A stretch of 22,677 bases of DNA from a virus, in IMG/VR virus record IMGVR_UViG_3300045581_000553, positions 1 to 22,677 of that record; one strand, given 5' to 3'. The position numbers and the translations under genes are program-made. Positions 1-21,383 of the stretch are shown one piece after another (positions within the stretch are counted from its first letter, which is position 1; the number at the start of each line of letters is the position of its first letter). The notes under the pieces are model-generated. The model had not been told where the DNA came from and made no database searches. It was given only the letters and a program-made list of their open reading frames with translations.

Positions 1-3000
1 GAAGGCGAGGGGCAGTTCTACAAGGACGGCTTGATTCGCGACTTCGAGAGCAGGACCGAGGCGCCCGTTTACAACCAATCCGCCACCCTGCGCCGCGGCA
101 CCGAAACGCTGAAGAAGTACGGGCTCATGCCCGAGTGGACCTGGGCCGAAGGCCTGGTGCCGGACATGCAGGAACAACCCCTCGAGCAAGGCCCCCGCGG
201 CACGTTTAGCCCTGAGCAACTGCTGGTCACGCTGAACGAGAACGCCGACCTATCGACGTTCCTGCACGAGTCTGGGCACTTCTTCCTCGAGGTAATGGCC
301 GACCTGGCCAGCCAGCCCAACGCCCCGCAGCAGATCAAGGACGACATGGCCACCACCCTCGCGTGGTTTGGCGTGCCTGACCTGGCCACCTGGAACGGCT
401 ACACCCTCAACGAGAAGCGCCCGTACCACGAACGCTGGGCCGAAAGCTTTGAGCAGTACCTCTTCGAAGGCAAAGCGCCAAGCGTTGAGCTTCAGCCGTT
501 GTTCCGTCGATTCCGCAGCTGGCTGCTCAATGTCTACAAGTCGCTGACGCAGTTCATGCGCGAGCGCAACCTTCAGCTGGGGGACGACATCCGCCAGGTG
601 TTCGGCCGCATGCTGGCCGTCGATGAGCAGATCGCCCAGGCTGAAGAGGCCGCCGGCCTGCTGCCCGATTTCGACGCCACCAACGAAGCCATCGAGAAAC
701 TGCAGGCGCGCAGCCTGCGCGATCTGAAGTGGGCGGTGAACGCACGCAACAAACGCATCAAGGAATTGCAAAAGCAGGCCAAGGACCTGCGCAAGGAAGT
801 CGAGGCCGAGGTGCGTGCCGAGGTTGAGCAACAGCCTGTCTACAGGGCCATGAACTGGCTCAAGAAGGGCGAGACGATTGACCCGGCCACCGGTGACTTG
901 ATCAAGGCCGAGAAAGGTTTCCGCCTGTTTACGGAAGCCCTGGCCGAGATGTACCCCGAAACCATGCTCAGCCGCCCCGACCTGGCTCGCCTCAAAGGCA
1001 TGACCAGCAAGGAAGGCCTGCACCCTGACCTGGTGGCCGACATGTTCGGCTTCGAGTCGGGCGACCAGCTGGTGCGCGCAATCCTCGACGCCGAGCCTAT
1101 CGCCACCGTCATCGAGGGCATGACCGACCAGCGGATGCTCGAGCGGCATGGCGACCTGGCCGATCAGCGCGCGATCGAAGAAGCTGCCAACCAAGCGGTG
1201 CACAACGAAGCTCGCGCGCGAAGCCTGGCCACCGAGCTGCGGAGTCAATCCGAGATGATGAGCCAGCGCCAGGATACCGGGCGCACGGACGTGCAAGGTC
1301 GCCCCATTACCGTCAACGCGATCACCGCCGCCGCGAAGGAGTTCGCGCTCAACCTGGCTGCTCGCCGTCGGATCAAAGACCTGAAGAATGCCACCTGGCA
1401 GCACCGCGCCGCCGAGGCTCGCGCTGGCAAGGCCTGGCAAGCCGCCACCACCAAAGGCGAGACAGAAGCCGCAGTGCAGGCCAAGCGCGACCAGGTGCTG
1501 AACAACGCCGCGGTGGCCGCACTGCAGGACGCCCAGGTCGAGGTGCGCAAGACTCTCGAGTTCTTCAAGCGCGTGGCCAAGGGCAGTGATGAGAAGCTGG
1601 TCGAGCGGGGTCGGGATCCTGACGTCGTCAACGCTATGCGCGCCATCCTGGCCGCCTACAGCGTGGCCCCACGTCTTGAGAAGTCGGCGCTGGACTACCT
1701 CGAGGTGGTCAGCCGCAACGACCCCGCGATGTATGGCGTGCTCAAGCCGATCGTCGACGCCGCGCTGGTCGAGGCGGTGCCACTGCCAGAGATGACGGTC
1801 GAGCAGTTGCGCGGGCTGACCGACAACCTGCGGGCCATGTGGGAGTTGGCCAAGCGCTCGCGGCAGATGGAAGTCGACGGCAACCTGCTGGACCTCGAGG
1901 ACGCATCGGCCGAGCTGTTTGCCAGGATGGAGCAGATCGGTATCCCGACCGAGGTGCCAGGCGAGAAGGGCGCTATCACCGAGAAACAAGAGCGCGGGCT
2001 CAAGCTGCAATTTGCCAAGTCAATCCTGCGTCGGGTTGAGCAGTGGGCCGAAGGGCTCGACGGCAAGTTCGGCGGTCCGTTCCTGCGCCTGGTGTTCCAG
2101 CCGATCAAGGACGCCGCCGACCGCTACCGCACCGCGAGGACCGACTACCGCAAGCGGTTTACTGACCTGGTTCAAAACCTGGCACCTGCGATGCCTGCAG
2201 GCGCAATCGACGCGCCAGAGATCGGCTACACCTTCGGCAACGCCCGCGACAGCGGCACCGCCGAGCTGGTCCACGCCATCCTGCACACCGGCAACGACAG
2301 CAACAAGCGCAAGCTCCTGCTGGGCCGTGGCTGGGCGACCGAGAACGCAGACGGCACGCTCGACACGCGCCGCTGGGACGCGTTCCTCCTGCGCGCCCAC
2401 AACACCGGAATCCTGAACAAGGCGCATTGGGATTTCGCTCAGGGCGTGTGGGACCTGCTCGAGGAAACGAAACCCCTGGCGCAGCAAACGCACCGCCAGG
2501 TGTTTGGCCGCTACTTCGCAGAAGTCACGGCCAACCCGGTGGTCACCCCGTTCGGAACCTACCGCGGAGGCTACGTCCCCGCGCAGACCGACAGCCGCCT
2601 GGTTAAAGATGCCAAACTGCGCGAGCTCGCCGATGGTGAAAACGAGTCGATGGCCTACGCATTCCCCAGCGCCCCCAGCGGGTTCACAAAGGCGCGGGTG
2701 GAGTACAACAAGCCTCTGCTGCTGGATCTGCGCGCCCTGGCTCAGCACATCGACAAGGTGCTGCTGTTCTCCCACATGCAGGTCGCGGTCAACGACGTGC
2801 GTAGACTGCTGTCCCGCAAGGACGTCAGTTACGCCCTGGACCGCATCGACCCAGGCGCGTACGAGGGCATGCTGATCCCTTGGCTCAACCGCTCGGCCAA
2901 GCAGATTGTCGAGACCCCGGTGGTTGGTGACCGCAAGCTCTCGAGGTTCCTCTCGGCTGCGCGCTCGCGCGCGGGCATGGCGCTGATGTTTGCCAACCTG

Positions 3001-4056
3001 TCGAACACGGTCCAGCAGATCACCGGCTTCAGCCTGGCCGCGGTCAAGGTAAAGCCAGGGCTCATGCTGCAGGCCACCGGGCAGTTCGCCGCCAGCCCCA
3101 AGGCGTTCAAGCAGTCAGTGGCCGACGCATCCCCCTACATGAAGGAGCGGATGCTTAACGACATGAGCGCGATGAACGACGCGGTCGAGGAGATCCTGGT
3201 CGATCAGACCCTGCTCGAGCGCGGCCAGGCCTGGACCCAGCGCCACGCGTATTTCCTGCAGTCGGCTGTCGACAACACGATGAGCCCGATCATCTGGACG
3301 GCGGCATACAACCAGGCCATCGCTGAAGGTCAGAACGCCCGGGATGCGGTGCGCTTTGCCGATGGCGTCATCCGTCAGACCCAGGGCTCGCTGCTGCCGG
3401 AAGACGTCAGTCGGTTCGAGACGGGCCCGGCTTACGGGCGACTGTTCACCCAGTTCGTGAGCTACTTCAACATGATGGCCAACACGAACGGCACCGCGGT
3501 CAAACAGATCGTCGACGAAATGGGCATGCGCAAGGGTGCCGGCAAAATCCTGTACGTAGCGCTGGCCGGCCTGCTGGTGCCGATCTGGGTAGCGGAGGCG
3601 ATCGCTCAGGCGTTCCGTGGGGGTCCTGAGGACGACGAAGGCGACGGTTACCTCGACGACTGGCTGGCTGCGGTGTTTGGGTTTGGCACGATCAAAGGCC
3701 TGGCTGCGCAAATCCCGTTCATCGGCCAGGCGGGGCAAATTGTTGTCAACCGGTTCAACGACAACCCGGCAGACGACAAGTTCAGTCTGAGCCCTGCGGT
3801 GTCGTTGATCGAGTCCAGCGTCAGCGCGCCGGCCAGTGTTTACAAGGCAATTGTCGACGACGGCAACGCGCAGAAGGCGGTGCGGGATGTCGCTGCTGCT
3901 GCCACCCTGATCACCGGTCTGCCGATCTACGCAGCCTCTCGCCCAATTGGATACATCACCGGAATGGCCGACGAAAAGATCAGGCCGGCGGGTCCGGTGG
4001 ACCTGACTCGAGGCCTGATCACAGGGACCGCAAGCCAGGAAAGCAAGGTGCCGTGA
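1..4056 (+). CDS. Large polyvalent/internal virion protein with HExxH metalloprotease motif (5' partial)
   Basis: The reading frame is open from base 1 (EGEGQFYKDG precedes the first possible TTG start at 31), so the gene begins upstream and at least 1351 residues are visible. Codons 89-93 read HESGH, a zinc metalloprotease signature, and about 50 residues later HERWAESFEQYL offers a Glu (near codon 148) as a possible third ligand, the gluzincin pattern. The middle is long, charged and alpha-helical (probable coiled coil). The C-terminal part has a hydrophobic stretch (ILYVALAGLLVPIWVAEAIA) and Gly/Ala-rich segments. Giant multidomain proteins of this kind are known from temperate podoviruses as ejected internal proteins and from the phage polyvalent protein class. 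It precedes the tail fibre in the late operon. The family role is inferred; the HExxH motif is seen. Confidence 0.8.
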   Translation, partial: EGEGQFYKDGLIRDFESRTEAPVYNQSATLRRGTETLKKYGLMPEWTWAEGLVPDMQEQPLEQGPRGTFSPEQLLVTLNENADLSTFLHESGHFFLEVMADLASQPNAPQQIKDDMATTLAWFGVPDLATWNGYTLNEKRPYHERWAESFEQYLFEGKAPSVELQPLFRRFRSWLLNVYKSLTQFMRERNLQLGDDIRQVFGRMLAVDEQIAQAEEAAGLLPDFDATNEAIEKLQARSLRDLKWAVNARNKRIKELQKQAKDLRKEVEAEVRAEVEQQPVYRAMNWLKKGETIDPATGDLIKAEKGFRLFTEALAEMYPETMLSRPDLARLKGMTSKEGLHPDLVADMFGFESGDQLVRAILDAEPIATVIEGMTDQRMLERHGDLADQRAIEEAANQAVHNEARARSLATELRSQSEMMSQRQDTGRTDVQGRPITVNAITAAAKEFALNLAARRRIKDLKNATWQHRAAEARAGKAWQAATTKGETEAAVQAKRDQVLNNAAVAALQDAQVEVRKTLEFFKRVAKGSDEKLVERGRDPDVVNAMRAILAAYSVAPRLEKSALDYLEVVSRNDPAMYGVLKPIVDAALVEAVPLPEMTVEQLRGLTDNLRAMWELAKRSRQMEVDGNLLDLEDASAELFARMEQIGIPTEVPGEKGAITEKQERGLKLQFAKSILRRVEQWAEGLDGKFGGPFLRLVFQPIKDAADRYRTARTDYRKRFTDLVQNLAPAMPAGAIDAPEIGYTFGNARDSGTAELVHAILHTGNDSNKRKLLLGRGWATENADGTLDTRRWDAFLLRAHNTGILNKAHWDFAQGVWDLLEETKPLAQQTHRQVFGRYFAEVTANPVVTPFGTYRGGYVPAQTDSRLVKDAKLRELADGENESMAYAFPSAPSGFTKARVEYNKPLLLDLRALAQHIDKVLLFSHMQVAVNDVRRLLSRKDVSYALDRIDPGAYEGMLIPWLNRSAKQIVETPVVGDRKLSRFLSAARSRAGMALMFANLSNTVQQITGFSLAAVKVKPGLMLQATGQFAASPKAFKQSVADASPYMKERMLNDMSAMNDAVEEILVDQTLLERGQAWTQRHAYFLQSAVDNTMSPIIWTAAYNQAIAEGQNARDAVRFADGVIRQTQGSLLPEDVSRFETGPAYGRLFTQFVSYFNMMANTNGTAVKQIVDEMGMRKGAGKILYVALAGLLVPIWVAEAIAQAFRGGPEDDEGDGYLDDWLAAVFGFGTIKGLAAQIPFIGQAGQIVVNRFNDNPADDKFSLSPAVSLIESSVSAPASVYKAIVDDGNAQKAVRDVAAAATLITGLPIYAASRPIGYITGMADEKIRPAGPVDLTRGLITGTASQESKVP

Positions 4057-7590: not shown

Positions 7591-8867
7591 CGACCCGCGT
7601 ACCAGGATCAATGATCGGCCTGACGCCTGTGGGCGGCACATCCGACGACACCCCGCAGATTCAAGCGGCCCTCAACGAAGCAAAAACGACCGGCGGCGCG
7701 GTGTACTTAGGCCCGGGCACCTTCCGCCTCAACACCCAGCTCGTAATCGCCGGCAGCGCCGGCACTGCCGCGCGTGTCGACCTGGTGATGTCCAAGGCCA
7801 CGATTCTCAAGTCGTATGTGACGGGCTCGGTGGCGAGCTACGACAGCGCGGGCTTTGCCATCGTGATCGACGGGTGGCGCGACTCGGCGATCCGCGGGGG
7901 GCGCTTGGACTACACCAATGGCACGGCCGGTATCCTGGTGCGCTGCCGGGCGGCTTCGACGATGGCCAACACCTTTGACGGCCTGCACATCTTCGGCGGT
8001 GCCACCAAGGCGATCCGCGAAACCGCGACCAAGGTGAGCCTGCGCTTCACCGGTAACGAGTCGGTGGCCGGCGCGGCGACCTACGTCAACTACTTCAACC
8101 GCGTGGTGGGCTGCCACTTCGACATCGGCTTCACGCACATCGACCTGCTGAACGGCGACTCGGGTGGCGGGCTGCACCAGCCCAACGCGCAGATCATCAC
8201 CGACTGCCTATTCGAGCGTTACGTGTACGGCGTCTACGTGCAGGACAGCGACGAGCACCGTGGCGACAACCTCTGGTTCAGCCAAGCGGGCACGCTCACC
8301 GCCAGCGCCGGGGGTGATGCCGGCACCAACTCGATCGACATCCGACTGGACGGCACCTACAACGACTTCACCTGGACCAGCGAGCCGGGTGTTGGGGCCA
8401 AGGCTTACTACGTTAAGGCTACAGCCAACGAGAACCGCCTGGCCGGCGTGTTCAACAGTGGGACCGCTCCGACCATCGAGGCGGGTGCTGCGGGCGACAA
8501 CCTGGTGTTTGACCGGCAACGCCTGGATGGCGTCAAGCGTTTGAACCACTTGAACCACGCTACCGACGGCGAGCAGGATATCAACCTGTTCGGCGACGGC
8601 GCCAACAGCCAAGGCGGGGCCGGGCGATCGAGCATGCGGATCTGGGAAGCCAACGGCACGGCGCGTAACCTGCGCCTGGGCTGGGGCACCGCAGGCAAGT
8701 GCTACGCGCAGGTGCCCAACGGCGCGCACCTCGACTTCGGCGGCACCTGGGAAAACCCGATCATGCTGAACGGGGCCTACCTTTGGGTCACCACGGGCAA
8801 GCTCTACATCAAGACCAGTGCGCCCACCACCAGCACCGATGGCACGGTGGTGGGCACTCAAACCTAA
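7587..8867 (+). CDS. Tail spike-like protein, pectate-lyase-type beta helix
   Basis: This is a 426-residue protein. The N-terminal segment MTTRVPGSMIGLTPVGGTSD DTPQIQAALNEA...GGAVYLGPGTFRLNTQLVI is the classic entry into a right-handed beta helix of the pectate lyase superfamily (DDT..IQ.AL..A...GG.V.L..GTY). The long middle has repeated hydrophobic/Gly/Asn turns (for example FERYVYGVYVQDSDEH). No enzymatic site is evident, so depolymerase activity on capsule or LPS is only inferred. The ATG overlaps the holin stop (ATGA). An upstream in-frame extension to 7401 would run inside the holin gene and is not used. It ends the rightward late cluster and meets the convergent HTH gene with a 4-bp overlap and no terminator. 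Confidence 0.85.
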   Translation: MTTRVPGSMIGLTPVGGTSDDTPQIQAALNEAKTTGGAVYLGPGTFRLNTQLVIAGSAGTAARVDLVMSKATILKSYVTGSVASYDSAGFAIVIDGWRDSAIRGGRLDYTNGTAGILVRCRAASTMANTFDGLHIFGGATKAIRETATKVSLRFTGNESVAGAATYVNYFNRVVGCHFDIGFTHIDLLNGDSGGGLHQPNAQIITDCLFERYVYGVYVQDSDEHRGDNLWFSQAGTLTASAGGDAGTNSIDIRLDGTYNDFTWTSEPGVGAKAYYVKATANENRLAGVFNSGTAPTIEAGAAGDNLVFDRQRLDGVKRLNHLNHATDGEQDINLFGDGANSQGGAGRSSMRIWEANGTARNLRLGWGTAGKCYAQVPNGAHLDFGGTWENPIMLNGAYLWVTTGKLYIKTSAPTTSTDGTVVGTQT

Positions 8868-9271
8868 CCGAAGGCCCGGCTGTCGTTGGCCGCCGGTGCG
8901 AGCCGGCTCACGGCTTCCTGGGCGATCGCCAGGTGCACGCGCAGGTCCTCAATCTCGCGACGCTGGGCGGTCAGCTGCTGGCGCAGCAGCACCAGGGACA
9001 GCACATGGCCGGGCTCGTAGCGGTCCCCGCCTGGGGATAGCAGCTCTCCATCGTGGAACCGCCAGCCGGTCCACTTGCCGCAGGTGCCAGGCAGATCCCC
9101 GAGCAAGAGCTTGATCGCCAGGTGCTGGCGGCCCGGGATCGGGGTCTTGCCGACCTTCCAGCGGTAGAGGGTTTTGGGGTGGATGTTGAGCTCGCGGGCC
9201 ACGCGGCGCTGGCCAATGAGTTCAATGAGCTGTCGAAGGTCACGGCGGGGCTTTTCGTTGATCTCAAGCAT
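8864..9271 (-). CDS. HTH DNA-binding phage protein
   Basis: This is a 135-residue protein. Residues about 10-50 (LRQLIELIGQRRVARELNIHPKTLYRWKVGKTPIP) form a clear helix-turn-helix. A short segment WTGWRFHDGELLSPGGDRYEPG follows, then a coiled-coil-like C-terminus (LLRQQLTAQRREIEDLRVHLAIAQ). The WRFHDG...GD..EPG segment is reminiscent of the phage DUF3653 family, but this is from memory and tentative. The ribosome site AAAGGA lies about 10 nt upstream of ATG. A 16-bp operator (9286-9301) sits directly in front, partly on the ribosome site, so the gene is probably repressor-controlled. Likely a small regulator; the target is unknown. Confidence 0.75.
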   Translation of the reverse strand: MLEINEKPRRDLRQLIELIGQRRVARELNIHPKTLYRWKVGKTPIPGRQHLAIKLLLGDLPGTCGKWTGWRFHDGELLSPGGDRYEPGHVLSLVLLRQQLTAQRREIEDLRVHLAIAQEAVSRLAPAANDSRAFG

Positions 9272-9285
9272 CTGCCACAGTTTCC

Positions 9286-9301
9286 TTTAGCAGTCGCTAC
9301 A
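9286..9301. promoter_or_regulatory. Operator copy (16-bp palindrome) before the HTH gene
   Basis: TTTAGCAGTCGCTACA matches the window-wide consensus TTTAGCA-NN-TGCTACA with one change. It lies 15 bp in front of the ATG at 9271 and touches the ribosome site, so binding would block this gene. Confidence 0.6.
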
Positions 9302-9306
9302 CCGTC

Positions 9307-9335
9307 AACCCCCATCCCGAGACGCATAATGTATA
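9307..9335 (-). promoter_or_regulatory. Composite motif shared with the transporter promoter
   Basis: AACCCCCA (9307-9314) followed by ACGCATAATGTATA (9322-9335) is repeated with nearly the same spacing at 10746-10773. In both places it stands next to an operator copy, on the upstream side of a leftward gene. Read on the minus strand it contains TATACA, a possible -10. The -35 region here is poor. Confidence 0.5.
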
Positions 9336-9382
9336 GACCGAGGCGGGGGCAACCCTCGGTCCATCAAAAAGTTGACCCTAAT

Positions 9383-9487
9383 TTACTGCACAGGATCAAA
9401 CACTTCCGAGCGGTTCTTCACGTTTTGCCTCATACGTGTAACGTGCATTATGTTCGCGTGCACGATGCACCATCGTTGGTAAAACAC
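9383..9487 (-). CDS. Possible 34-aa peptide downstream of dpdA
   Basis: A GTG start (9487) is preceded by an AAGGA ribosome site at good spacing, itself overlapping the dpdA stop codon. The peptide is basic (VFYQRWCIVHANIMHVTRMR...) with no recognisable domain. The stretch 9272-9499 otherwise holds no gene. It also contains a GTGCAT/ATGCAC inverted repeat (9443-9470). Coding status is doubtful. Confidence 0.25.
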   Translation of the reverse strand: MFYQRWCIVHANIMHVTRMRQNVKNRSEVFDPVQ

Positions 9488-9499
9488 GGGCGAATTCCT

Positions 9500-10213
9500 T
9501 TAGCAGATCGCGGCTGCCGGCCAGTGGTCGGAGCTGTTGTGTGCCTCGACTCGGTCGGCTATCACGGCGGCGCGCTGCCAAGTGCTGGCCGGCTGGTACG
9601 GACCCTCCCAGCGCTTGCCGTTGCAATTGACGCCGACGTTGGTCGAGTCAGCACTCGAGAGCGGCAGCTTGCTGAACACCTTGGGGTTCAACATGCGCAG
9701 CCCATGCAAGCGACACAGTGGGCGACCCATCGCGTCGCACATCACGGCGAGCACCTCGTGCATACGATCCCACCAATCACCGACCCCCGGTGTTGGCCAC
9801 TGGCCCGACGACCCAAGGGCAACCACCGGATACTCGTTGGCCAGGCGCTCGGCCCGCTCTAGCGGCTCGTGCAGGTGATAGATCGGCACGCCGCGGATGT
9901 GCGCCGGCCAGTCAGCGAGGAGGGCGTCGTTGTCTTCAGCGGTGCCGTCGATCACGTCGGGGATCAGCGCCCAGTCGAAGCCCGGGTGGCGGTGCCATTC
10001 ATCGCACCAGTCGGTGAAGCCCTGGACGTCCAGCACAGCTCCGCGCTTCCACACACTGAAGGCGCCGTTGTCGAACACGAACGACTGGCAGACCTCGGCC
10101 ACAACACCCATGTCGTCGCGCCGCGGGAACGGCACCAGGGCGTGCCGGCCCATCAGGAACCGCGCCACGTCTTGGCGCGGCCCGCTGATAGGAGTTCCGT
10201 GGTAGTGGATCAT
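9500..10213 (-). CDS. dpdA: DpdA-like DNA guanine transglycosylase (7-deazaguanine insertion)
   Basis: This is a 237-residue protein of the TGT-like fold seen in phage DpdA enzymes, which exchange guanine in DNA for a 7-deazaguanine base. Visible motifs: FDNGAFS (47-53), equivalent to TGT DSGGFQ, with Asp48 the likely acid/base. Next comes DWALIPDVIDG (80-90), then PIYHLHEPLE, then ALGSSGQ (132-138), the base-pocket glycine loop. HGLRM (170-174) and SADSTN (187-192) follow, Asp189 being the likely nucleophile. It is short and lacks the CxCxxC zinc site of tRNA TGTs, which fits a phage DNA-acting subfamily. The chosen ATG overlaps the transporter stop (ATGA), implying translational coupling. 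An upstream ATG at 10246 would lie inside the transporter. The base inserted and the target motif cannot be read from sequence. Confidence 0.82.
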   Translation of the reverse strand: MIHYHGTPISGPRQDVARFLMGRHALVPFPRRDDMGVVAEVCQSFVFDNGAFSVWKRGAVLDVQGFTDWCDEWHRHPGFDWALIPDVIDGTAEDNDALLADWPAHIRGVPIYHLHEPLERAERLANEYPVVALGSSGQWPTPGVGDWWDRMHEVLAVMCDAMGRPLCRLHGLRMLNPKVFSKLPLSSADSTNVGVNCNGKRWEGPYQPASTWQRAAVIADRVEAHNSSDHWPAAAIC

Positions 10214-10695
10214 GCGCGCACCGAGCGCCTTATGACCCAGGCCCACACCGCACCGCCGGCCACTTTGGCCGCGAACTGCAGCGCCACGATGTGCGGCAGA
10301 AATCCGCCGAAGGCAATGGTCGGGAACAGCAGACTGTCCGCCAGGGCGCCGGCCGCGTTGCTACCGTTGGCACGCTGCAGAAACGGGCGCTCGTGCAAGC
10401 GCTGGTAGACCAGCGCATCGACCATAGCCGCGGCCATAAACGCGATTGCACTAGCCAGTGCGATCTGGCCAGCGGCAGGGTTAAGCAACCAGCTCACTGC
10501 GCCGGCGGCGGCAATCATGCCGAGCATGCGTGGCCACAAGGCTTTGCCGGCCCATCGGTCATGCAGTCCATCTCGCAGCGACAGATCGAGTCCAATTAGA
10601 AGGAACGAGTTCAAGGGCGAAACCCAGGGGCCGAAGGTGGCCACGGATAGATTCGCAACGGTGATGGCACCGACATAGATCAAAACAGCAATCAC
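10210..10695 (-). CDS. VUT/YhhQ-family 7-deazaguanine precursor transporter (short phage form)
   Basis: This is a 161-residue polytopic membrane protein with about five to six hydrophobic segments: VIAVLIYVGAITVANLSVA, then NSFLLIGLDLSLRD, then MIAAAGAVSWLL, then IALASAIAFMAAAMVDALVY, and a C-terminal LADSLLFPTIAFGG...AAKVAGGAVWAWVI. The LDLSLRD, VDALVYQRL and ANGSNAAGALADSLLFPTIAFG signatures belong to the VUT family, whose E. coli member YhhQ imports preQ0/preQ1. It is shorter than YhhQ (about 220 residues), as phage versions often are. GTG at 10695 is preferred: AAAGG lies 6 nt upstream, and the predicted promoter (-10 at 10722-10727) gives a leader of about 20 nt. An ATG at 10821 would put operator DNA into the coding region. 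It is coupled to dpdA. Confidence 0.82.
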   Translation of the reverse strand: MIAVLIYVGAITVANLSVATFGPWVSPLNSFLLIGLDLSLRDGLHDRWAGKALWPRMLGMIAAAGAVSWLLNPAAGQIALASAIAFMAAAMVDALVYQRLHERPFLQRANGSNAAGALADSLLFPTIAFGGFLPHIVALQFAAKVAGGAVWAWVIRRSVRA

Positions 10696-10721
10696 GATCA
10701 GCCTTTCTTTTGCTACAGAAA

Positions 10722-10739
10722 CTTGTAGCAGTTGCTCAA
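10722..10739 (-). promoter_or_regulatory. Operator and extended -10 of the transporter-dpdA operon
   Basis: On the minus strand TTGAGCAACTGCTACA (10724-10739) fits the operator consensus and its right arm forms an extended -10, TGCTACAAG. The -35 at 17-19 bp is weak. A flanking TGCTACA (10710-10716) makes a second inverted pair with TGTAGCA. Confidence 0.5.
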
Positions 10740-10745
10740 TCCCAA

Positions 10746-10796
10746 AACCCCCACTTGGTACGCATAATGTATATTCTGCCTTTACAGAACTGTAAA
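10746..10796 (-). promoter_or_regulatory. Candidate upstream promoter and duplicated composite motif
   Basis: The minus strand shows TTTACA (10791-10796), a 17-bp spacer and TATACA (10768-10773), a fair sigma70 promoter pointing to the transporter. The -10 lies in ACGCATAATGTATA (10760-10773). That motif plus AACCCCCA (10746-10753) recurs at 9307-9335. Confidence 0.5.
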
Positions 10797-10801
10797 GGCA
10801 G
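10776..10801. repeat. Perfect 26-bp palindrome
   Basis: Arms CTGCCTTTACAG and CTGTAAAGGCAG are perfect around a central AA. The palindrome overlaps the -35 of the candidate upstream promoter, so it may be an operator for another regulator, for instance the Cro-like or HTH protein. As RNA it could form an 11-bp stem with a 4-nt loop, but no U-tract follows. Confidence 0.75.
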
Positions 10802-10830
10802 CGAGCACTTAGGGGGAGCATCGTGCTCGC
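10801..10830. repeat. 8-bp inverted repeat
   Basis: GCGAGCAC (10801-10808) and GTGCTCGC (10823-10830) are separated by 14 nt. It abuts the 26-bp palindrome and is part of the palindrome cluster in the transporter-dpdA control region. Confidence 0.55.
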
Positions 10831-10834
10831 GTCG

Positions 10835-10854
10835 GTTCTAGCAGGTGCTAGAAC
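10835..10854. promoter_or_regulatory. Perfect 20-bp palindromic operator copy
   Basis: GTTCTAGCAGGTGCTAGAAC is a perfect palindrome and contains the operator core TAGCA-NN-TGCTA. It is about 140 bp upstream of the transporter start, a second operator for this promoter region. Confidence 0.6.
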
Positions 10855-10857
10855 TAG

Positions 10858-10941
10858 GTGCAGAATGCACCCGGGCGGGGGAGAGCGTCAAGTTTCGTTT
10901 GTGGAACGATTCTGTGGAATCTGCAGAACGTTCTGTAGAAC
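10858..10941. repeat. Further small palindromes and a tandem GAACG-TTCTGT repeat
   Basis: GTGCA-GAA-TGCAC (10858-10870), CAGAACGTTCTG (10924-10935) and GTTCTGTAGAAC (10930-10941) are palindromes. GGAACGATTCTGTGGAAT (10903-10920) and AGAACGTTCTGTAGAAC (10925-10941) are imperfect direct repeats. No terminator for the long leftward operon is recognisable here. Confidence 0.5.
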
Positions 10942-10949
10942 GCGCTGTG

Positions 10950-11120
10950 CTAGCCAACCTGGCGGCGCAGCCAGTCCGACAAGGCCTGCGGCGGAATCAG
11001 TTGGTGTGGTGACTGCTCACCCAGGTTGGTGAGCAGCTTGTCAAACGCCTCGGCTTTGCGTTGCATGCGCTGATACTCGTCGAGAGCGTGGTTGATCGCT
11101 GCGTCAAATTCGCCCGACAT
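10950..11120 (-). CDS. Small hypothetical protein (last gene of replication operon)
   Basis: A 56-residue helical, charged protein (SGEFDAAINHALDEYQRMQRKAEAFDKLL) with no recognised domain. The ATG at 11120 is chosen because it starts one base after the DUF3310 gene stop. The longer form from 11144 would overlap that gene. It ends before the palindrome-rich region. Confidence 0.6.
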   Translation of the reverse strand: MSGEFDAAINHALDEYQRMQRKAEAFDKLLTNLGEQSPHQLIPPQALSDWLRRQVG

Positions 11121-11121
11121 G

Positions 11122-11376
11122 TTAGGCCCCCTTCTTAAGTTCAAATTCGATCAGCATGTCGATGACATGCCGGGCTTTCTCGAGGTCCTGCACACCCGCT
11201 TTGTCTCGAAACCTGGTCACGTATTTGATGATCGTGTGCTGACAGGCATCGAGGCCGTTGGCCATCGAATACTCCATCGGCTGGATCTTGAGCTTCGTGT
11301 AGTGACTGCCGCCCACCTGGGTCGTCAGTGCACCGGTCGGGGTCTTCTTGATAAAGCTGGGAATCTCGTCTTTCAT
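11122..11376 (-). CDS. DUF3310 family protein
   Basis: An 84-residue protein. Residues about 21-80 (VGGSHYTKLKIQPMEYSMAN, then CQHTIIKYVTRFRDKAGVQDLEKARHVIDMLIE) are the DUF3310 signature, a small helical domain common in phage replication regions and sometimes called SaV-like. Its biochemical role is not established; a nucleotide-metabolism link has been suggested for related folds. The start overlaps the helicase stop by ATGA. Confidence 0.85.
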   Translation of the reverse strand: MKDEIPSFIKKTPTGALTTQVGGSHYTKLKIQPMEYSMANGLDACQHTIIKYVTRFRDKAGVQDLEKARHVIDMLIEFELKKGA

Positions 11377-20411: not shown

Positions 20412-20579
20412 CTACCGCAGGGCCAGGAAGATCAGTTCTGTGATGCTCAACACCAGCACAAGCCCGGCTATCCGAAGCGCCGCGCGGGCGTTGCGTTGGG
20501 CCTCCTCGAGCGGGTCGTGCCAGAGCCCGCCGTGCTCTACCAGGTACTGGATCCGCTGCTTGATCTGCTCGTCGCTCAT
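20412..20579 (-). CDS. 55-aa membrane protein coupled to the repressor
   Basis: The N-terminus MSDEQIKQRIQYLVEHGGLW is amphipathic, and the C-terminus has one membrane span (IAGLVLVLSITELIFLAL). The start overlaps the repressor stop (ATGA), and the terminator follows 15 nt later, so it is made with the repressor in the lysogen. A superinfection-exclusion or other lysogenic-conversion role is an inference from this position. Confidence 0.65.
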   Translation of the reverse strand: MSDEQIKQRIQYLVEHGGLWHDPLEEAQRNARAALRIAGLVLVLSITELIFLALR

Positions 20580-20989
20580 TTAATTAACCCCACTATCCGT
20601 TTTATGAATGGCTCGTCCACTCGCCCGAGCAGCTTCGTGTGCTCATATGCGAGTCCGACAAGATTCGCGTAAGCGTCAGGGTCTGGTTTTAGACCTGCGT
20701 CACGGATTGCTGCAGCCACCGCGCGGACACAGGCGGCTAGGGTCTCGTCGTCCACCTGGCGATTGCTGCCCGGGTGATCCTGGTCTATCCAGCCGATTGG
20801 CAGGCCGAGCTTGGTCTCCATCTCCCTGGCCACTCGCTCGCTGACGTCTCGGCTGGGGTTGGGTCCCGCCAGCTGGGCCAGGTACGAACCATTCGCGTGG
20901 CCGAGCTTCTTGGCCAGGCTAGTGGGCCCACCCCACTGGGTCATTAGGCTGCGCAAATTCTCGCGGCGTTTGTCATAGACGGACTGCAT
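20576..20989 (-). CDS. Phage repressor, short HTH type without peptidase
   Basis: A 137-residue protein. The HTH is at about residues 23-60 (GPTSLAKKLGHANGSYLAQL, then DVSERVAREMETKLGLPIGWID). The C-terminal half (DETLAACVRAVAAAIRDAGLKPDPDAYANLVGLAYEHTKLLGR) is helical and probably dimerises. There is no LexA/CI-type S24 peptidase domain, so classic RecA-stimulated self-cleavage is not expected. It is divergent from the Cro-like gene across 64 bp. It is the most likely protein to bind the dispersed 16-bp operators. Confidence 0.85.
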   Translation of the reverse strand: MQSVYDKRRENLRSLMTQWGGPTSLAKKLGHANGSYLAQLAGPNPSRDVSERVAREMETKLGLPIGWIDQDHPGSNRQVDDETLAACVRAVAAAIRDAGLKPDPDAYANLVGLAYEHTKLLGRVDEPFIKRIVGLIK

Positions 20990-21053: not shown

Positions 21054-21383
21054 ATGAAAACGATCACACCCATGCGCAACTGGATGGCCGCGGCCACAGT
21101 TGCAGAACAAGAGCTCCTGGCTGAGCGCGTAGGTACATCCCGAGGGATGCTCTACCAGCTCGCCGGGGGCCATCGCAACGCCAGCGCCGAGCGCGCCCAG
21201 GCTATCGAGCGCGAGACCAAACTGATGGCCAAGGCCAGCAAGGGCCGGCTGCCGGTGATCTACCGCACCGACTTATGCGAAGCCTGCAGGTCTTGCGATT
21301 TCGCGGCCAGGTGCCTGGGCGATCGGGTTGTGGTGTCTGAATTTCCTATCGTAGACGCGCGTCAACTGGAGCTCGACCTATGA
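21054..21383 (+). CDS. Cro-like HTH protein with C-terminal Cys motif
   Basis: A 109-residue protein. The N-terminal HTH (MRNWMAAATVAEQELLAERVGTSRGMLYQLAGGHRNASAERAQAIER) is of the YdaS/Cro type. The C-terminal tail has CEACRSCDFAARC, a CxxCxxC-x5-C cluster that may bind a metal. Divergent from the repressor, it is the expected early antagonist. It overlaps the next small gene by ATGA. The Cys cluster is unusual for a Cro protein. Confidence 0.8.
   Translation: MKTITPMRNWMAAATVAEQELLAERVGTSRGMLYQLAGGHRNASAERAQAIERETKLMAKASKGRLPVIYRTDLCEACRSCDFAARCLGDRVVVSEFPIVDARQLELDL

Follow-up and report, generated by a model that had tools for sequence, protein, structure and literature searches.

A recurrent pair of overlapping phage genes, for a VUT-family membrane protein and a DpdA-like enzyme, and its possible role in 7-deazaguanine salvage

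How might a phage place a 7-deazaguanine base in its DNA if it carries no genes to make the precursor? The question is raised by two overlapping genes in an IMG/VR virus record of 22,677 bases, the whole of which was analysed and is referred to here as the window. It covers part of a tailed phage genome and contains genes for a tail spike, a DNA polymerase, a helicase and repressor-like proteins. Because its first open reading frame is cut, gene absences reported for the window apply to this fragment only. That frame (31-4056, 1341 aa) resembles the C-terminal part of phrog_9880, a family of 2231 positions and unknown function.

The pair and its immediate signals are:

9500..10213, minus strand: DpdA-like base-exchange enzyme, ATG to TAA, 237 aa, predicted TGT fold, with D48, D86 and D189
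10210..10695, minus strand: VUT/QPTR-family six-helix membrane protein, presumed 7-deazaguanine importer, GTG to TGA, 161 aa
10210..10213, minus strand: overlap of the VUT stop and the DpdA start, ATGA, seen in the sequence and indicating translational coupling
10702..10707, minus strand: GAAAGG, likely ribosome-binding site of VUT, just upstream of its GTG

Our explanation, which we consider probable, is that these genes form a two-gene cargo cassette in which VUT imports a 7-deazaguanine and the DpdA relative inserts it into DNA, the phage itself making no precursor.

Gene structure and protein families

The VUT-DpdA junction reads GCGCGCATGATCC, the TGA of VUT overlapping the ATG of DpdA. 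A sequence-only reading of this DNA had described the overlap, and its coordinates were exact. The same 4-bp overlap is found in the closest relative, L002, and in phages RCIP0319, Opt-79 and Lg3. The GTG start of VUT is supported by the starts of its relatives and by the GAAAGG upstream. A longer VUT frame from an ATG at 10821 (203 aa) was rejected; the relatives begin near 10695, and the added DNA is a conserved promoter/operator region in L099, a related phage that lacks the two genes.

The DpdA-like protein matched no Pfam or NCBIfam model. It falls in phrog_887, annotated as queuine tRNA-ribosyltransferase (8.3e-63), which also takes in CAjan gp35 (8.2e-96), Salmonella phage 7-11 gp32 (7.1e-74) and MED16 gp38 (3.1e-72). 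A profile of 18 family members aligns with CAjan DpdA at an hhalign E of 1.8e-10, with the motifs in register (DSGAFSA/DNGAFSV, GG/GSSG and SCDSS/SADST). The window enzyme is thus akin in sequence to an experimentally proven DpdA: in CAjan, dPreQ0 requires dpdA, and its deletion abolishes DNA modification (PMC6884629).

The window enzyme has the motifs DNGAFS (D48), PDVI (D86), LGSSGQ and SADSTN (D189). All three aspartates are invariant in 22 members of the family, and in 18 diverse members with identities down to 30%; they match the base-holding and nucleophile residues of TGT, roles that are assigned here by motif rather than by superposition. The sequence-only reading had pointed to DNGAFS, LGSSGQ and SADSTN and to the missing zinc site of tRNA TGT, and both points hold in the 237-residue sequence, in which no CxCxxC motif occurs. 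It had also named loss of D48 or D189 among homologues, or a fold unrelated to TGT, as evidence that would count against it; neither was seen.

Kinship to the cellular enzymes could not be traced by profile comparison. The window protein does not match PF01702 (tRNA-guanine transglycosylase), and hhalign of the DpdA profile against six tRNA TGTs aligned just the D(N/S)GxF motif, at a non-significant E of 0.17. Sequence searches of the PDB with the DpdA and VUT profiles gave nothing significant. Structure prediction had been proposed with the sequence-only reading. The AlphaFold2 model of the enzyme (pLDDT 83.6, pTM 0.83) had no Foldseek match in the PDB at E 0.001 or better, the top rows being tryptophan synthase alpha barrels. 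By VIA-align its best match is archaeosine TGT (1iq8; Z 14.5, 3.7 Å over 219 residues), followed by CBASS Cap10 (9ntn; Z 14.2), with other TIM barrels reaching Z 13.5, within about 1 Z of TGT. Among viral models, the named significant matches are mostly queuine tRNA-ribosyltransferases. The protein is thus predicted to be a TGT-type TIM barrel.

The close score of Cap10, together with DNA from relatives that holds only traces of dADG (PMC6884629, PMC8306585), would be consistent with an enzyme that modifies tRNA or protein instead of DNA, for example by Cap10-like deazaguanylation, or that acts in counter-defence. Membership in the family of CAjan DpdA argues for DNA as the target, and the absence of the CxCxxC zinc motif argues against a tRNA substrate. 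We consider such a non-DNA role improbable.

VUT passes Pfam PF02592 (Vut_1) with an E of 1.6e-12 and 48.4 bits, against a gathering cut-off of 27.2, the match covering the second half of the model only. Transporters of the QPTR/YhhQ family are about 220 aa long. At 161 aa the window protein is shorter than these (COG1738, PF02592), and it has six predicted helices (AlphaFold2 pLDDT 91.3). Its identification as a VUT/YhhQ-type membrane protein is therefore upheld by the PF02592 match and the helices. It falls in phrog_4899 (7.2e-42), which also contains the annotated preQ0 transporter of CAjan, and aligns with that transporter at an hhalign E of 3.8e-7. The NCBIfam equivalog for queuosine precursor transporters, TIGR00697, gave 26.1 bits, below its cut-off of 50.95. 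Structural matches are weak and are to ECF S-components, the best PDB match being weak as well. Known QPTR members differ in substrate (PMC11130926). From its family, VUT is presumed to import a 7-deazaguanine base.

In the proposed mechanism, VUT would carry a 7-deazaguanine, with preQ0 and preQ1 the likeliest bases, into the host. One message would serve for both proteins, and the DpdA relative made from it would exchange guanine for the imported base at some DNA sites by the double-displacement reaction of TGT, D189 being the putative nucleophile and D48 and D86 the residues that hold the base. Without precursor synthesis of its own, the phage would draw on the host pool and on import. The substrate, DNA as the target, the direction of transport and the benefit to the phage are what we infer; the paragraphs below describe the comparative evidence.

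Recurrence of the pair and supply of the base

When IMG/VR was scanned with VUT, 15 coding relatives emerged, every one adjoining a DpdA relative; a sixteenth match, L099, is regulatory DNA and was left out of this count. The pairs belong to two DpdA branches and occur in both gene orders, often with the ATGA overlap. Viewed from DpdA, a VUT partner is present in 13 of the 80 closest relatives in IMG/VR. Among 80 DpdA relatives from bacterial genomes, VUT is a clear neighbour of four (L134, L146, L147 and L177) and a weak one of three; in Devosia (L174) and Rhizobium (L179), DpdA adjoins such a weak VUT match. In most DpdA relatives VUT is missing. When 103 DpdA proteins were placed on a tree, 13 gains or losses were needed to explain the VUT label, at least nine of them forced by starred branches.

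Of the 21 VUT-bearing records in the phage collection, 14 place a DpdA next to VUT. A single lineage, made up of six mEp phages and MagusPhagus, accounts for the remaining seven. The genomes of mEp021 and MagusPhagus, the two of the seven that were examined, have no phrog_887 match, so that a universal linkage of VUT to DpdA is rejected. In both (mEp021, L188:3004-4271; MagusPhagus, L189) VUT has a small gene on one side and a phrog_757 DNA methyltransferase on the other, which suggests that VUT may serve another modification there.

The pair is also present in named phages. PEAT2 of Pectobacterium (gp18-gp19) and the Escherichia phages Lg3, LHE71 and RCIP0319 have VUT followed directly by DpdA, the same order as in the window, and the DpdAs of PEAT2, RCIP0319 and Lg3 are 30-33% identical to that of the window; no functional study of these four phages was found in the literature. 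That VUT and DpdA recur together, translationally coupled, in many phages is thus supported.

The nearest characterized system is the preQ0 system of CAjan, whose DpdA (gp35) and transporter (gp41) share PHROGs 887 and 4899 with the window proteins. The CAjan cluster, however, also encodes FolE, QueD, QueE and QueC, whereas the window fragment is without FolE, QueC and QueD, and the window genes are adjacent and overlapping, unlike those of CAjan. In CAjan, as in EC151 (PMC8310023), the transporter sits within a full preQ0 cluster. A DpdA-only "third group", which includes 7-11 and MED16, has the same DpdA family (hhalign 99.9% for 7-11) and no reported preQ0 synthesis genes. Hutinet et al. 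in 2019 listed 76 phages with DpdA and without synthesis genes and proposed uptake of an exogenous precursor; they noted YhhQ homologues in some phages but no correlation with any phage group (PMC6884629). Here, in contrast, VUT is tightly linked to DpdA. Systems for 7-deazaguanine insertion are already known; the stripped-down, recurring VUT-DpdA pair is a variant of them, and no description of the minimal coupled pair as a unit was found in the literature searched, whose coverage of key later work is incomplete.

Models for QueC, QueD, TGT and FolE have no match in the window, which bears out for this fragment the earlier statement that folE, queD and queC are absent. Among IMG/VR records, 12 others with the pair, the longest 57 kb, likewise have no match to the QueC, QueD and TGT models. 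Neither FolE nor QueC was found in six pair-bearing records deposited as complete genomes (AB3P2, Phc, PEAT2, RCIP0319, Opt-79 and Lg3), under a search in which CAjan, the positive control, scores for both; QueD was searched in one of the six.

Bacterial genomes that carry the pair differ in their que genes. QueC and QueD are both present in five of seven, so that import may do no more than enlarge the host pool. The genomes of Devosia L174 and Rhizobium L179 have no full-length QueC or QueD, with partial QueC-like matches and a TGT present, and these bacteria may depend on precursor salvage. In Ideonella (L177) and a Nitrosomonadales MAG (L134) there is a single PF02592 match per genome, presumably the pair's own VUT. 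Since host que gene content varies, import may supplement or replace the host supply, depending on the host. The claim that the phage imports its precursor instead of making it is therefore upheld for the phages, which lack FolE and QueC, and is weakened by the five bacterial genomes.

These five genomes also fit another explanation, that the enzyme uses host preQ0 while VUT serves something else, such as feeding host tRNA queuosine, in which case the two genes would be paired by common timing and not by a common pathway. The many DpdA relatives without VUT, and the mEp021-type phages that keep VUT without DpdA, point the same way. But such an explanation does not readily account for VUT relatives that adjoin DpdA in every one of the 15 close cases, often overlapping and in either order, for the repeated independent pairing on the DpdA tree, or for the presence of both families in the CAjan preQ0 cluster. 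We regard it as unlikely, though the least so of the alternatives considered.

How much base would be inserted can be gauged from relatives. By LC-MS, about 0.02% of G is dADG in Salmonella phage 7-11 (PMC6884629) and about 0.13% in Pantoea phage MED16; the enzymes tested on MED16 DNA were not affected, and those for which sensitivity was expected still cut it (PMC8306585). Measurable dADG in two phages whose DpdAs are of this family counts in favour of the cassette explanation. In CAjan, a more distant relative with its own preQ0 synthesis, about 32% of G is modified (PMC6884629). VUT has no significant match in the DpdA-holding half of the 7-11 genome, nor within 3 kb of MED16 gp38. The sequence-only reading had called the pair a minimal salvage system for hypermodified DNA, and had pointed to the blocking of restriction by phage DpdA proteins. 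The salvage module stands on the protein families, the predicted TGT fold, the aspartates, the coupling and the lack of FolE and QueC; hypermodification and restriction blocking are at present not supported, given the traces in 7-11 and MED16 and the cutting of MED16 DNA.

Promoter region and origin of the cassette

The DNA around the pair contains further elements:

10776..10801, no strand: 26-bp palindrome CTGCCTTTACAGAACTGTAAAGGCAG with 12-bp arms, operator candidate upstream of VUT, conserved in L099
10835..10854, no strand: second palindrome GTTCTAGCAGGTGCTAGAAC with 9-bp arms, upstream of VUT, in a region conserved in L099
10761..10773, minus strand: TATACATTATGCG, promoter-proximal element upstream of VUT, within a 49-bp direct repeat
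9323..9335, minus strand: TATACATTATGCG, second copy, between the pair and the HTH gene, within the 49-bp direct repeat
8864..9271, minus strand: HTH/DUF3653-like regulator gene (PF12375, E 7.9e-6), the promoter's natural owner in L099

In L099 a 147-bp region, 83.7% identical to that of the window, lies directly upstream of the HTH gene, so that in the window the pair sits between the promoter and its HTH gene (empty-site comparison of window 9336-10760 with L099:1441-1670). The pair is flanked in the window by the diverged 49-bp direct repeat, 75.5% identical. In L002 the pair is upstream of the operator region instead; operator control is therefore not a fixed feature of the pair. A search with the 20-bp core of the first palindrome found no second copy in the window, the next best site having 5 mismatches, and there is no copy in the gap of a putative repressor pair at 20.99-21.05 kb, between the HTH protein genes at 20576-20989 and 21054-21383. 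A sigma-70 consensus scan of 9200-11150 found none, so the promoter is a predicted one. The proposal that the pair is operator-controlled and switched on at lytic induction survives only in part: VUT does have a palindrome ahead of it, but in L099 the promoter/operator belongs to the HTH gene, and the lytic switch finds no support in the position of the L002 pair across the operator or in the repressor gap.

The empty site in L099 and the repeat around the pair might be taken to mean that the cassette is a recently acquired passenger behind a duplicated promoter, affecting the phage little or not at all. Against this, window and L002 differ at 25, 19 and 96 first, second and third codon positions in DpdA, and at 39, 28 and 88 in VUT. 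With third positions dominating in both, both genes look functional. Distribution is also very wide, with the catalytic residues kept. A mere passenger is thus very improbable.

Alternative partners of DpdA

The slot next to DpdA is not always filled by VUT. Counted within 1.5 kb of DpdA, an 81-aa protein (phrog_37496) is present in 83 loci, VUT in 36, both in six, QueD in eight and none of these in 53. The counts are descriptive, because the loci come from more than one query and the QueD profile is narrow, missing the QueD of CAjan. Partners are exchanged even among the window's nearest relatives: L002 (85%) has VUT, and L003 (77%) has the 81-aa gene instead. Strict mutual exclusion was considered and rejected, VUT and the 81-aa gene occurring together in the six loci.

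A lone QueD (PTPS) replaces VUT upstream of DpdA in L007, L008, L009, L130 and L171, and downstream in L144, L155 and L156. In several loci the QueD and DpdA genes overlap at stop and start, and two of the QueD neighbours match PF01242 at 5e-20 and 4e-24. QueD being an enzyme of the preQ0 pathway, its position beside DpdA is a separate line of support for a role related to preQ0.

The 81-aa protein, which has no Pfam match, is encoded at L003:3194-3439 and in about 88 other loci, and adjoins DpdA in most Pseudomonas-type loci. Its invariant residues are C12-P13, V33-E34 and E49 (E usually after H), spaced much as in QueF. Its profile matches QueF-like proteins at E 0.003 to 0.006, and bimodular QueFs alone at 0.014, and the score against QueF exceeds all 100 of 100 column-shuffled controls. 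It is a possible miniature QueF-like enzyme, a profile match of this kind being far from proof.

A broader and more tentative reading takes DpdA as a fixed core whose neighbour slot holds a VUT importer, QueD or the perhaps QueF-like 81-aa protein, the window having the import-only form. As the inserted base would then be set by what VUT imports, it may be one not seen before in DNA.

The largest group of DpdA phages recognized in 2019 has DpdA without precursor synthesis, and the source of its precursor was left open. Because phages that can be grown on laboratory E. coli carry a tightly linked importer-enzyme pair, that question can be tested directly, and the way VUT, QueD and the 81-aa protein alternate hints at additional pathway genes.
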